This document shows, in pieces, positions 15,244 to 18,447 of a stretch of DNA of 20,403 bases. Numbering within the stretch: position 1 is the first letter of the stretch; every line of letters starts with the position of its first letter. This stretch comes from a virus. Position numbers and translations under genes: made by a program. The stretch spans positions 1-20,403 of the IMG/VR virus record IMGVR_UViG_3300025598_000229. One strand, given 5' to 3'. The notes below the pieces were generated by a model. The model did not search any database, was not told the DNA's origin, and saw only the letters and a program-made list of their open reading frames with translations.

Positions 15244-15642
15244 ATGGACATTGTTGAACTGTTAAAAAATTTAAATGTTGAATGGCACCAAGAGCCGATC
15301 ATTAATTTAGCCGCTGAAGAAATTGAACAGCTACGAGAAGATCTTAAAGATCAAAAGGGCAAAACAATAGCTGCTTATAAACGAGAGGCCAAATGGATCG
15401 AAAATGTTTCTAATGCGAAAGTTGAAATTGAACGGCTGCAGAATGAGCGGGATTTATTCAAAGGTATTTGGCAAAGATCAACTGAGTTAGATCATCGAAT
15501 CAGTGAATCTTGGACGGATGAAACTCAAAAGTTGCAGGATGCATTGCGAGAGGTCAGTGGCTATGTTGCACGAGCTGAATGGTTTTACATGACTGAAGAA
15601 ACAAAGGCTGTTGTTGAGCAGGTTTTTGGAGAGGTAAAATGA
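15244..15642 (+). CDS. Coiled-coil phage protein, function unknown
   Basis: 132 residues, ATG 15244 with CGAGGCTAAAC upstream. Two long heptad-like stretches (LAAEEIEQLREDLKDQKGK; AKVEIERLQNERDLFKGIW) indicate a parallel coiled coil. The A-x-E-I-E-x-L-R type motif recurs in this protein and in the next one (ADEIERLRERV), a hallmark of small tandem phage early proteins. Not recognised. The stop overlaps the next start as ATGA. Confidence 0.7.
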   Translation: MDIVELLKNLNVEWHQEPIINLAAEEIEQLREDLKDQKGKTIAAYKREAKWIENVSNAKVEIERLQNERDLFKGIWQRSTELDHRISESWTDETQKLQDALREVSGYVARAEWFYMTEETKAVVEQVFGEVK

Positions 15643-15833
15643 CTGACATTGTCAAATGGTTACGCGGACATTCGCCTACTTTACGGATCGCAATGAGGCT
15701 TGATGAAGCCGCTGACGAGATTGAGCGGTTGCGGGAGCGTGTGGCGGTTTTAGAAGCAACTTTAGAAGGTGCATTAGACAGCTGCAAAATTTGGGAGCGT
15801 ATACTAACCAATGCACTAGGGGAGAAAGAGTGA
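15639..15833 (+). CDS. Small coiled-coil phage protein
   Basis: 64 residues, coupled to the previous gene (ATGA) with GGAGAGGTAAA upstream. TDIVKWLRGHSP leads into EAADEIERLRERVAVLEATL, a short coiled coil. From memory, proteins with the TDIVE.LR...EAADEIERLR pattern are common in proteobacterial phages; function unknown. It may pair with the preceding coiled-coil protein. Confidence 0.75.
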   Translation: MTDIVKWLRGHSPTLRIAMRLDEAADEIERLRERVAVLEATLEGALDSCKIWERILTNALGEKE

Positions 15834-16423: not shown

Positions 16424-16541
16424 TCAGCCAGATGGCGGTGTTATTTTGGAGCTTGAATTGACGAAGGAAGAGCGGGACGCGCTCATTGAGTTTGCGCTGA
16501 TTGAGGCGTTCAAGCGCTTGGTTGGGATTGATACCAAGTGA
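16401..16541 (+). CDS. 46-residue phage protein, function unknown
   Basis: ATG at 16401 with CAGGAGAAGAAGC upstream, stop TGA at 16539. The translation begins MEILQIIDQPDGGVILELEL and ends in an amphipathic helix (ERDALIEFALIEAFKRLVG). From memory, short proteins of the form (I/L)IDQPDG.A.L.L.LT.EE..AL..FA occur in phage early regions. It is the last gene before the non-coding region and is followed by the hairpin at 16568. Confidence 0.7.
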   Translation: MEILQIIDQPDGGVILELELTKEERDALIEFALIEAFKRLVGIDTK

Positions 16542-16567
16542 TTCGACTGATATGACTGAAAAGTAGA

Positions 16568-16598
16568 AGCCCCGGCGAGACTTGCTCAAACCGGGGCT
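16568..16598 (+). terminator. Hairpin ending the early operon
   Basis: AGCCCCGG (16568-16575) pairs with CCGGGGCT (16591-16598), an eight-base GC-rich stem with a 15-base loop, 27 bp after the last stop codon. There is no T-tract, so termination would be weak or factor-dependent; it may instead be a processing or leader element of the structured RNA that starts 28 bp later. Confidence 0.5.
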
Positions 16599-16625
16599 AC
16601 TGACCAAGTTCTTTTGCACGGAGAC

Positions 16626-17000
16626 GGTCAGTGGTGAACATATACAATCAATAATGATTTGTAGCAAGTTCTCATTGTCCCCAATTCTCAGCACTGGAAC
16701 GGTCACCGTTAGGTAAAACGGGAACATCCGGCGGTCGGTATCCGGCAGCGCACCTAACGTGGGAATGAGGTACTGTGGGATTATGCTCAAACCTCAAGCG
16801 GAGCCCTAGGGCGCGAACCGTGAGCATCGTAGGTGGGATAGTACCTGCGTGAAGTAGCGCGTCTGCTGGTGAGGCTATTCCTGCTCATCGGCCCTCCTGT
16901 TCGACGGTGGCTCCGCTGATCATACAGGTTGAGGGGACCGCCCTGCTTTTTAGCGGGGATGGTCTCCCTTTGCCTCCAATTCTCTGGTTCACCACTGATC
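16626..17000 (+). ncRNA. Probable large structured non-coding RNA (about 375 nt)
   Basis: The two ends pair: GGTCAGTGGTGAAC (16626-16639) with GTTCACCACTGATC (16987-17000), 14 pairs including one G-U. Inside are further helices: CGTTAGGT/ACCTAACG (16707-16714/16752-16759), GGTACT/AGTACC (16769/16840), ATGCTCA/TGAGCAT (16783/16821), CCTGT/ACAGG, and GGGGACC/GGTCTCC enclosing CCCTGC/GCGGGG. Several need G-U pairs that exist only on the plus-strand RNA. Both strands lack a convincing gene. It does not show tmRNA, RNase P or tRNA signatures. It sits between the early genes and the packaging genes. The family is unknown to me. Confidence 0.6.
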
Positions 17001-17011
17001 ATTGTACTACA

Positions 17012-17023
17012 TAGTATATACTA
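17012..17023. repeat. 12-bp AT-rich palindrome TAGTATATACTA
   Basis: A perfect palindrome just past the structured RNA and next to the G-rich tract. It could be an operator or easily melted site; no partner copy is seen in the window. Confidence 0.4.
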
Positions 17024-17026
17024 GTA

Positions 17027-17046
17027 GGTGGGGTGGGGTGGGGTGG
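17027..17046 (+). repeat. G-quadruplex motif, tandem GGGGT
   Basis: GGTGGGGTGGGGTGGGGTGG carries five G-runs, three of them four bases long, separated by single T. This is a textbook intramolecular G-quadruplex sequence on the plus strand, in non-coding DNA 140 bp before the first gene of the packaging operon. Confidence 0.7.
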
Positions 17047-17086
17047 CCCGTCCTGCGCGGCAAGACAAGGTGACGATGTGCAAAAC

Positions 17087-17098
17087 GTCTGGCCAGAC
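17087..17098. promoter_or_regulatory. 12-bp palindrome GTCTGGCCAGAC, operator candidate
   Basis: A perfect palindrome 67 bp ahead of the gene at 17165. It is flanked on both sides by CAAAACG (17081-17087 and 17102-17108). A TAAAAT (17121-17126) downstream could be a -10, though no good -35 is placed for it. It may control the packaging operon. Confidence 0.4.
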
Positions 17099-17164
17099 AG
17101 ACAAAACGGCCAAATTGGTGTAAAATGTTCATCATGTTAGACAATTCGAGCTTAAAGGGGCCAA

Positions 17165-17566
17165 ATGTTTAAGTTCATCAAACGGCAATGGCTACGGCTT
17201 AAACAATCTTGGAACGCCTTCAAGCGTGAATGGCGCTTCAATCATGTCGATAGCACTGACCATCTCAAACAAGACAAGTCTTTTGTCATCATGGGACTGG
17301 GTGCCCTTCGTGGGCGGTTTTACGATCCGGGCTTTGTGCATGACGAGTTTGAGTTGTACCCGCCATATCGTGGGCAAGCACTAAATCGGCTCAATGGGCA
17401 TGCATTTACGCTAAAATATGCTTATTTTGACGACAAGACGGGCAATATTCGGTACTATGAGAAGCCACAGAAGATCGACGGATGGACTGCGGTGGATATG
17501 GAATGGTTTAAAGATTACGAAGACATCGGCAATAATGTTTCACGTGAAACAAATGGAGAACGCTAA
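17165..17566 (+). CDS. Phage protein, function unknown
   Basis: 133 residues, ATG 17165 with AAAGGGGCCAA upstream. A very basic amphipathic N-terminus (FKFIKRQWLRLKQSWNAFKR) could contact membrane or nucleic acid. The rest is a Tyr-rich mixed fold (GRFYDPGFVHDEFELYPPYR; LKYAYFDDKTGNIRYYEKP). Not recognised. Near the C-terminus, NNVSRET is encoded by a perfect parS sequence. It is the first gene of the rightward block leading to terminase. Confidence 0.72.
   Translation: MFKFIKRQWLRLKQSWNAFKREWRFNHVDSTDHLKQDKSFVIMGLGALRGRFYDPGFVHDEFELYPPYRGQALNRLNGHAFTLKYAYFDDKTGNIRYYEKPQKIDGWTAVDMEWFKDYEDIGNNVSRETNGER
17536..17551. promoter_or_regulatory. parS: parS-like site, copy 1 (TGTTTCACGTGAAACA)
   Basis: A perfect 16-bp palindrome identical to the bacterial chromosomal centromere site bound by ParB (consensus TGTTNCACGTGAAACA). 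It lies in the last codons of the 17165-17566 gene and encodes N-V-S-R-E-T. No parA or parB gene is visible in this window. Confidence 0.75.
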
Positions 17567-18103: not shown

Positions 18104-18447
18104 TGGCACATCCACTCGGTATTCCACGCATAACACTTGCAGATCATGCCCAATACAACGATATGAAGGCTTGGGTACTTGATCAGAACTGGATGCCGCC
18201 CGAATTTATTAAACGGGCCGCATTGTATGAAGGAATTACCGGGAGAAAGTATCCTGTAAAGCCACTTAGCGAAGAGGATTTAGATATTGACCACGCAAAA
18301 CGGCAAGAAGCCAGACTAACGCTGGAGAAGTGGGATGAGATCCGTAAACGTGATGCACGTGAGAAGGAACATATGACAACCACACGCCCGGCGTTCAATC
18401 ATGGGCTTTACGGCAAAGATTACGGACATAGGCGCAAAGATGACTAA
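18103..18447 (+). CDS. Phage protein, function unknown
   Basis: 114 residues, start overlapping the previous stop (TAATG) with GGAGTG upstream. Helical and basic; MKAWVLDQNWMPPEFIKRAA then a charged helix (AKRQEARLTLEKWDEIRKRD) and the tail GLYGKDYGHRRKDD. Not recognised. It precedes TerS, whose start overlaps it by 8 bp, so it may be a packaging accessory or simply co-transcribed. Confidence 0.68.
   Translation: MAHPLGIPRITLADHAQYNDMKAWVLDQNWMPPEFIKRAALYEGITGRKYPVKPLSEEDLDIDHAKRQEARLTLEKWDEIRKRDAREKEHMTTTRPAFNHGLYGKDYGHRRKDD

Follow-up and report, generated by a model that had tools for sequence, protein, structure and literature searches.

A putative structured RNA family with exchangeable bodies, ahead of the packaging genes of freshwater phages

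What occupies the long stretch without genes that lies between the early and the packaging genes of a freshwater phage? The question arises from the window analysed here, a 20.4-kb (20,403-nucleotide) stretch of an IMG/VR virus record from a phage that we call freshwater. In this window a plus-strand array of small ORFs runs up to position 16541, the gap between genes extends from 16542 to 17164, and small ORFs resume at 17165, followed by the gene for an Sf6-like small terminase at 18401. In relatives of this phage, a terminase and an SU10-like portal are encoded downstream of the corresponding locus. A preliminary description, made from the letters of the window, had placed in the gap a large structured RNA spanning 16626-17000, with a 14-pair terminal stem and at least six internal helices. 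Our analysis bears out a large structured RNA of the plus strand, but not its proposed boundaries or its closing stem. In both phage lineages that carry the locus, short-ORF families of the type MDIV..RLR..AADEIERLR are repeated upstream of the RNA (window 15639-15833; L083, L055, L025 and others). Elsewhere in the window, a 129-aa ORF on the minus strand (1255-1644) has a sub-threshold HNH match (Pfam E 4e-4).

A plus-strand fold and the members of its family

The gap does hold a large fold. The region 16626-17000 folds far better than its dinucleotide shuffles (z -4.4, equalled by 0 of 100), and the longer stretch that we delimit below, 16563-17003, reaches z -4.6. Since the minus strand folds well too (z -3.45), a single sequence cannot settle the strand, and it is the alignment that does so: G-U cells outnumber A-C cells by 55 to 6 in one class of members (class A, which includes the window) and by 64 to 6 in the other (class B). 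The folded RNA is thus that of the plus strand, as the preliminary description had held in preferring an RNA to a DNA palindrome. No reading frame is open throughout the class A members on either strand, which speaks against a protein-coding gene. ARAGORN and Rfam found no tRNA or tmRNA in the window, and Rfam searches at permissive thresholds, which covered the window and the RNA at seven homologous loci, returned nothing credible, Intron_gpI included, so that the reported lack of tmRNA, tRNA and group I intron signatures holds.

Members of the family were gathered in several ways. The small terminase, used as an anchor, led to seven near relatives. L005/L006 match the window at 99.8% in the RNA region, although their flanking genes reach only ~90% identity; for L003/L002, L007 and L008 the alignment to the window breaks at ~16607 and resumes at ~17077, with different sequence of similar length between. 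Both versions of the locus begin with the same hairpin. A scan of viral contigs with a descriptor of this hairpin, CCCGGYGAGN{3,9}CTCNAACCGGG, gave L025, L027, L029, L030, L032, L034, L035, L036 and L037; a search with a class A core word gave L055, L056, L071, L072, L083, L085 and L087; and a portal-based scan added L092, L093 and L126. Among phages with the same portal, the descriptor of the hairpin (P1) and the covariance models found as new only L091-L093 and L126. Most portal relatives (L094-L167) lack the RNA, which is therefore not essential to the portal-sharing group. The family amounts to about 15 distinct freshwater viral contigs, all of them metagenomic.

Further searches delimit this set. 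Fold-scan candidates upstream of the portal in L094 and L108/L109 looked coding or unrelated on inspection, and Rfam recognised one tRNA across 17 portal loci. A blastn search of INPHARED with five members gave no match, and in MW202675, the record of a genome whose portal is related, the space ahead of the small terminase is too short to hold the RNA. When two patterns were run over genome contigs, one found no match and the other 22 loci, four of them proteobacterial, which were searched without a body match. The pattern TWWTCCTGCTCATCGKCC gave recognised matches in known members only, and nothing was gained from an upstream 46-aa ORF as an anchor. A literature search that covered few subscription journals found no published report of this RNA.

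A common promoter and 5′ module, and two bodies behind them

Ahead of the fold lies a sigma70-type promoter, TTGATA-N17-TATGAC (16531-16560, plus strand), which matches the consensus at 9 of 12 positions and lies ~12 nt before the first hairpin, P1. A sigma70-like promoter is found in 16 of 16 aligned members, with 9-11 of 12 matches, a spacing of 15-18 nt and, at its best, elements as good as TTGACA-16-TATTAT. The chance of such a promoter is 1.3% per random upstream sequence, and members whose upstream sequences are unrelated (45-49% identity) all still have it. Because the promoter stands at the same distance from P1 in every aligned member (10-13 nt from the -10 element), the RNA is probably transcribed from a promoter of its own. 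Taking the 5′ end from this promoter and the 3′ end from the point at which conservation is lost, we place a putative class A noncoding RNA of ~440 nt at ~16563-17003 on the plus strand, as indicated by the fold, the homologues, covariation and the lack of a conserved reading frame. The RNA would thus begin ~60 nt before the limit of 16626 given earlier.

The first ~70 nt form two tandem hairpins that begin ~5 nt past the expected start site and are present in every one of the 16 aligned members, whether of class A or class B; their covariance model, R1, has matches in both classes. P1 (16569-16597, plus strand) pairs GCCCCGG with CCGGGGC around an inner GAG/CTC and an asymmetric C/AAA internal loop. 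Its stem pairs vary with compensation (CCCCAG/CTGGGG, CCTCGG/CCGAGG and CCCCGC/GCGGGG), and the inner GAG/CTC and the asymmetric loop are kept throughout. P2 (16600-16631, plus strand) pairs CTGACC with GGTCAG, or elsewhere CTGAACC with GGTTCAG, and in most members has the apical loop CUUGGCGG. P2 excludes the 14-pair terminal stem (16626-16639 with 16987-17000): the 5′ half of that stem is the 3′ strand of P2, and its 3′ half is conserved without a conserved partner. The 14-pair stem is kept in no other divergent member, stems of at least 14 pairs arise 11 times when the region is mononucleotide-shuffled 100 times, and we rejected it as a conserved helix.

On the minus strand P1 reads as a hairpin followed by a U-rich tail, so that it could also end antisense transcription. 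A hairpin of the P1 type, CCCGGCGAG..CTCAAACCGGG, recurs in unrelated viral contigs, at L021:6072-6190, L024:491-610, L031:12655-12770 and on the minus strand of L026, where a conserved stretch of ~115 nt holds it along with CTAGAGGAGACGGTA and another hairpin, and also on the minus strand at L042:3183-3205 and L041:2208-2232. Read on the other strand, several of these are a hairpin with a U-run; they are perhaps a shared terminator or another small RNA.

The class A body behind this module was aligned from P4 to the 3′ end in nine distinct sequences (alignment A5), with helices chosen from L055 and checked in all. The resulting model has 67 pairs including a pseudoknot. Standard pairs fill 97.0% of 601 cells (n = 9), a proportion favoured by the structure having been read from the same sequences, and the evidence therefore lies in double-sided changes. 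These occur in 32 of the 67 pairs, against 14.7 expected from column shuffling (0 of 500 shuffles as high) and at most 6 in a control with slid partners; in this alignment the window is shifted by one column in P4 and also misplaced in P11b, faults that reduce the counts and do not inflate them. The conserved body comprises 11 helices including the pseudoknot, in addition to P1 and P2. The earlier description, with at least six internal helices, did not include the pseudoknot.

In particular, P4 (16707-16714 with 16752-16759, plus strand) surrounds P4b (16734-16738 with 16742-16746) and the near-invariant AAAACGGGANCATCCGGCGGTCGGT; the window pairs CGTTAGGT with ACCTAACG, and four of the eight pairs show double-sided changes. 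P5 pairs GAGGU at 16767-16771 with ACCUC at 16791-16795 (GGGAU with AUCCC elsewhere), and P6 pairs AUGCUC at 16783-16788 with GAGCAU at 16822-16827, the latter helix occurring also as GCAUCC/GGAUGC and GUGUCC/GGACAC, with double-sided changes in five of its six pairs. P5 crosses P6, and the core of class A is thus a pseudoknot; both arms, on the plus strand, are paired in every member (100% of cells). P6 encloses P7 (16798-16801 with 16818-16821; two of four pairs changed on both sides) and P7b (16803-16805 with 16810-16812), both likewise read on the plus strand. The hairpins P8 (16828-16849, CGUAGGUG/UACCUGCG) and P9 (16865-16892, GCUGGUGAG/CUCAUCGGC) follow on the same strand, with double-sided changes in seven of eight and eight of nine pairs, respectively, and all cells paired in P9; together with P6 they are the most strongly covarying helices of the class.

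P10 (CCUGU/ACAGG) and P10b (16905-16909 with 16914-16918), within 16896-16928 on the plus strand, are paired in all members that have letters there, with changes between U-A and C-G and between G-C and A-U. P11 (16936-16940 with 16960-16964) and P11b (16941-16947 with 16952-16958) complete the set at 16936-16964 on the plus strand in A5; although misaligned there, P11b of the window is intact (CCCUGCU/AGCGGGG). A tentative P3 region at 16636-16671 (plus strand; GAAC/GTTC with an inner hairpin), recognised by inspection, varies in length and sequence between members and was not counted. The window thus has P1-P2 and P4-P11 with the P5/P6 pseudoknot, the features that mark class A, and scores 55.7 bits with R1 and 121 bits with model R2, both of which had the window in their training sets. 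Great length, numerous covarying helices and a pseudoknot are what one looks for in a large ornate phage RNA, and the covariation among homologues strongly supports the suggestion that this is one, perhaps of a new class.

Beyond the last helix, alignment of class A members shows a conserved 3′ stretch, (N)TCACCAYTGRWCA, without a conserved partner (16986-17003, plus strand); in L037 the start codon of the next gene lies ~40 nt behind it. Directly behind the RNA of the window comes a G-rich run of repeats, GGTGGGGTGGGGTGGGGTGG (17026-17044, plus strand), a possible quadruplex or slippage tract, of which L005 has one repeat fewer. We found no plus-strand intrinsic terminator at the 3′ end of the RNA. 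A consensus scan of the plus strand pointed to a possible second promoter, CAGACA-17-TAAAAT (17098-17126), ahead of the packaging-side genes; such sites numbered two against 1.0 expected, and this one is also kept in L003.

Class B RNAs occupy the same locus and have nothing in common with class A beyond the promoter and the P1-P2 module that makes up the first ~70 nt. The RNAalifold consensus of four of them (alignment A6: L126, L003, L007 and L008, on which the pair counts rest) has 148 pairs, with 95.5% of cells paired and 23 pairs changed on both sides, against at most 4 after sliding, so that class B covaries as well. A covariance model of the class B core, R3, finds L025, L027, L029, L032, L034 and L093 at the expected place (E 5e-14 to 2e-12), an out-of-sample test, as these six loci were absent from its training set. 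R3 matches neither the window nor the other class A loci, and the class A model finds nothing in class B loci. Short words common to the two bodies, TCCGGCGGTC, CCTCAAGCGG and TCCTGCTCATCG, are not conserved within the classes, and local scores between the bodies reach only z 3-4; body homology was rejected on these grounds. By sequence and by covariance model the two bodies are unrelated, although they may have a remote kinship.

Closely related phages can differ in the body that they carry. Over 300 nt of upstream sequence the class A window and the class B member L003 have 96% identity, but their bodies have only 46%, which is background. For a second such pair, L092 (class A) and L091 (class B), identity is 80% upstream and 74% downstream, with 90% in the promoter and 83% in P1-P2, against 42% for the body. 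The reverse holds for the window and L072, which both belong to class A: their bodies are 65% identical and their upstream sequences 46%. This pattern indicates at least two exchanges of the body, with promoter and 5′ module retained, or else recombination that restored one of two ancestral versions.

Four members, from both classes, have a gene for a homing-type endonuclease directly behind the RNA, and most members have none. Three of these genes are of HNH type (L005:9437-9769, L083:2390-2791 and L093:5521-5961) and one bears NUMOD3 with a GIY-YIG-like start (L027:3406-4047); L027 also has two tRNA genes recognised by Rfam upstream of its class B RNA (1344-1512). The near-identity of the RNAs of the window and L005, against 90% in the flanks, fits a recent transfer, and the repeated occurrence of endonuclease genes directly behind the RNA suggests that RNA cassettes move between phages by homing-driven recombination. 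We infer from this that homing drives the exchange of bodies.

Candidate roles of the RNA

The reading that we favour, and consider moderately probable, is that 16563-17003 encodes a structured noncoding phage RNA that belongs to class A of a new family, is independently transcribed and acts in trans. The promoter, strand, fold, conservation and exchange on which this builds come from comparison of sequences; the role in trans is proposed by analogy. Host RNA polymerase would transcribe it from the sigma70 promoter of the locus at about the early-to-late switch. The 5′ module P1-P2 would start or protect the transcript or permit read-through, and the exchangeable body of ~370 nt (class A), built round P5/P6, would carry the activity. 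The RNA may then act as a folded RNA, alone or with a protein, in the manner of GOLLD and ROOL.

The main rival, which we judge unlikely but take seriously, is a cis-acting leader of the late or packaging operon, in which P1-P2 act like the put RNA of phage HK022 in antitermination and antipausing, or the whole RNA regulates late genes, with transcription running into the portal and terminase genes. The RNA has two stem-loops directly downstream of its promoter, as a put element does, and these two tandem hairpins of ~70 nt, ~5 nt past the expected start, resemble the anatomy of HK022 putL (PMC9378689) and are the sole part common to both classes. In every member in which a portal or terminase gene is visible, the RNA lies upstream of it and on the same strand, an arrangement that fits a leader as well. 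The lack of a plus-strand terminator at the RNA end likewise favours a leader and counts against a stand-alone RNA, for which a terminator would be expected. However, put-like action does not need a covarying body of 370-450 nt with a pseudoknot, several members have endonuclease genes and small ORFs between the RNA and the late genes, and in the window a second promoter-like site lies behind the RNA. The leader and the trans-acting RNA could also coexist, with P1-P2 working in cis while the body works in trans. We entertain as a speculative and rather improbable version a modular RNA gene in which unrelated large bodies are swapped as alleles between close relatives, by the homing endonucleases behind them, at a conserved promoter and 5′ module; the module would act on the polymerase, and the body would have a role in trans, perhaps directed at host defence or at a competing phage.

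The constant proximity of the locus to packaging genes might also suggest an RNA that joins the portal/terminase motor as the pRNA of phi29 does. These phages have a conventional Sf6-like small terminase and SU10-like portal, close portal relatives lack the RNA, and Rfam finds no phi29-type pRNA, which makes a packaging RNA very unlikely. More doubtful still, and disfavoured, is a degenerate group I intron, another ribozyme or the guide RNA of a nuclease encoded by the neighbouring HNH or GIY-YIG genes. The endonuclease genes directly behind the RNA in four members and the nested pseudoknot core recall such elements, but the permissive Rfam search of members gave no credible match, the position is intergenic with no interrupted gene, the HNH proteins near the RNA are of 110-146 aa without a RuvC domain in Pfam, most members lack an endonuclease gene, and the RNA has its own promoter. 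Finally, a DNA element (an origin, a cos or pac site, or a palindrome) with an incidental fold would suit a position between early and packaging modules, but is refuted as the main explanation by the strand-specific pairing, and as loop lengths vary while stems covary we give it next to no credence.

Comparison with known phage RNAs

The short list of large RNAs to which GOLLD and ROOL belong gains from this locus a further phage RNA family, with two bodies whose secondary structures are of covariation grade. That near-identical phages differ in the body while promoter and 5′ module stay fixed amounts to an unusual natural experiment: it distinguishes the parts that the locus has to retain from those open to exchange, and it supplies constructs that can be tested directly. 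Models R1-R3 allow the family to be found in sequence data and in existing lake metatranscriptomes.

Several known systems bear comparison with this RNA. HK022 putL consists of ~70 nt with two stem-loops just downstream of a promoter (PMC9378689), and P1-P2 are likewise two tandem hairpins of ~70 nt just behind a sigma70 phage promoter; compared with putL and putR by anatomy, not sequence, the new RNA differs in adding a conserved body of 370-450 nt and in lying on the late side. HEARO/omega RNAs and group I introns with homing endonucleases also place a structured RNA beside a gene of HNH or GIY-YIG type, as some members do here, whereas the new RNA has no Rfam match and splits no gene, and the endonuclease gene beside it, where there is one, is small and comes in two unrelated types.

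GOLLD is a large, multi-helix, pseudoknotted phage RNA, in some cases from lakes, with one conserved and one variable part, and ROOL is a large ornate RNA of phages and prophages with a complex secondary structure, its role not established (PMC12286853). The new RNA resembles GOLLD in being large, multi-helix, pseudoknotted and phage-encoded, with constant and variable parts, and ROOL in being large, ornate, phage-encoded and of complex secondary structure. The Rfam covariance models of GOLLD and ROOL had no match with permissive filters. At 440-480 nt, the RNA is shorter than many GOLLD members, which exceed 800 nt; its 5′ part is conserved and its 3′ body exchanged, the reverse of GOLLD; and it adjoins packaging genes, whereas GOLLD lies in tRNA islands. 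It is also smaller than ROOL and differs from it in having packaging genes as neighbours. Most likely, then, the RNA works like GOLLD and ROOL more than like any other of these systems, but as a new family that by the Rfam test is a member of neither.
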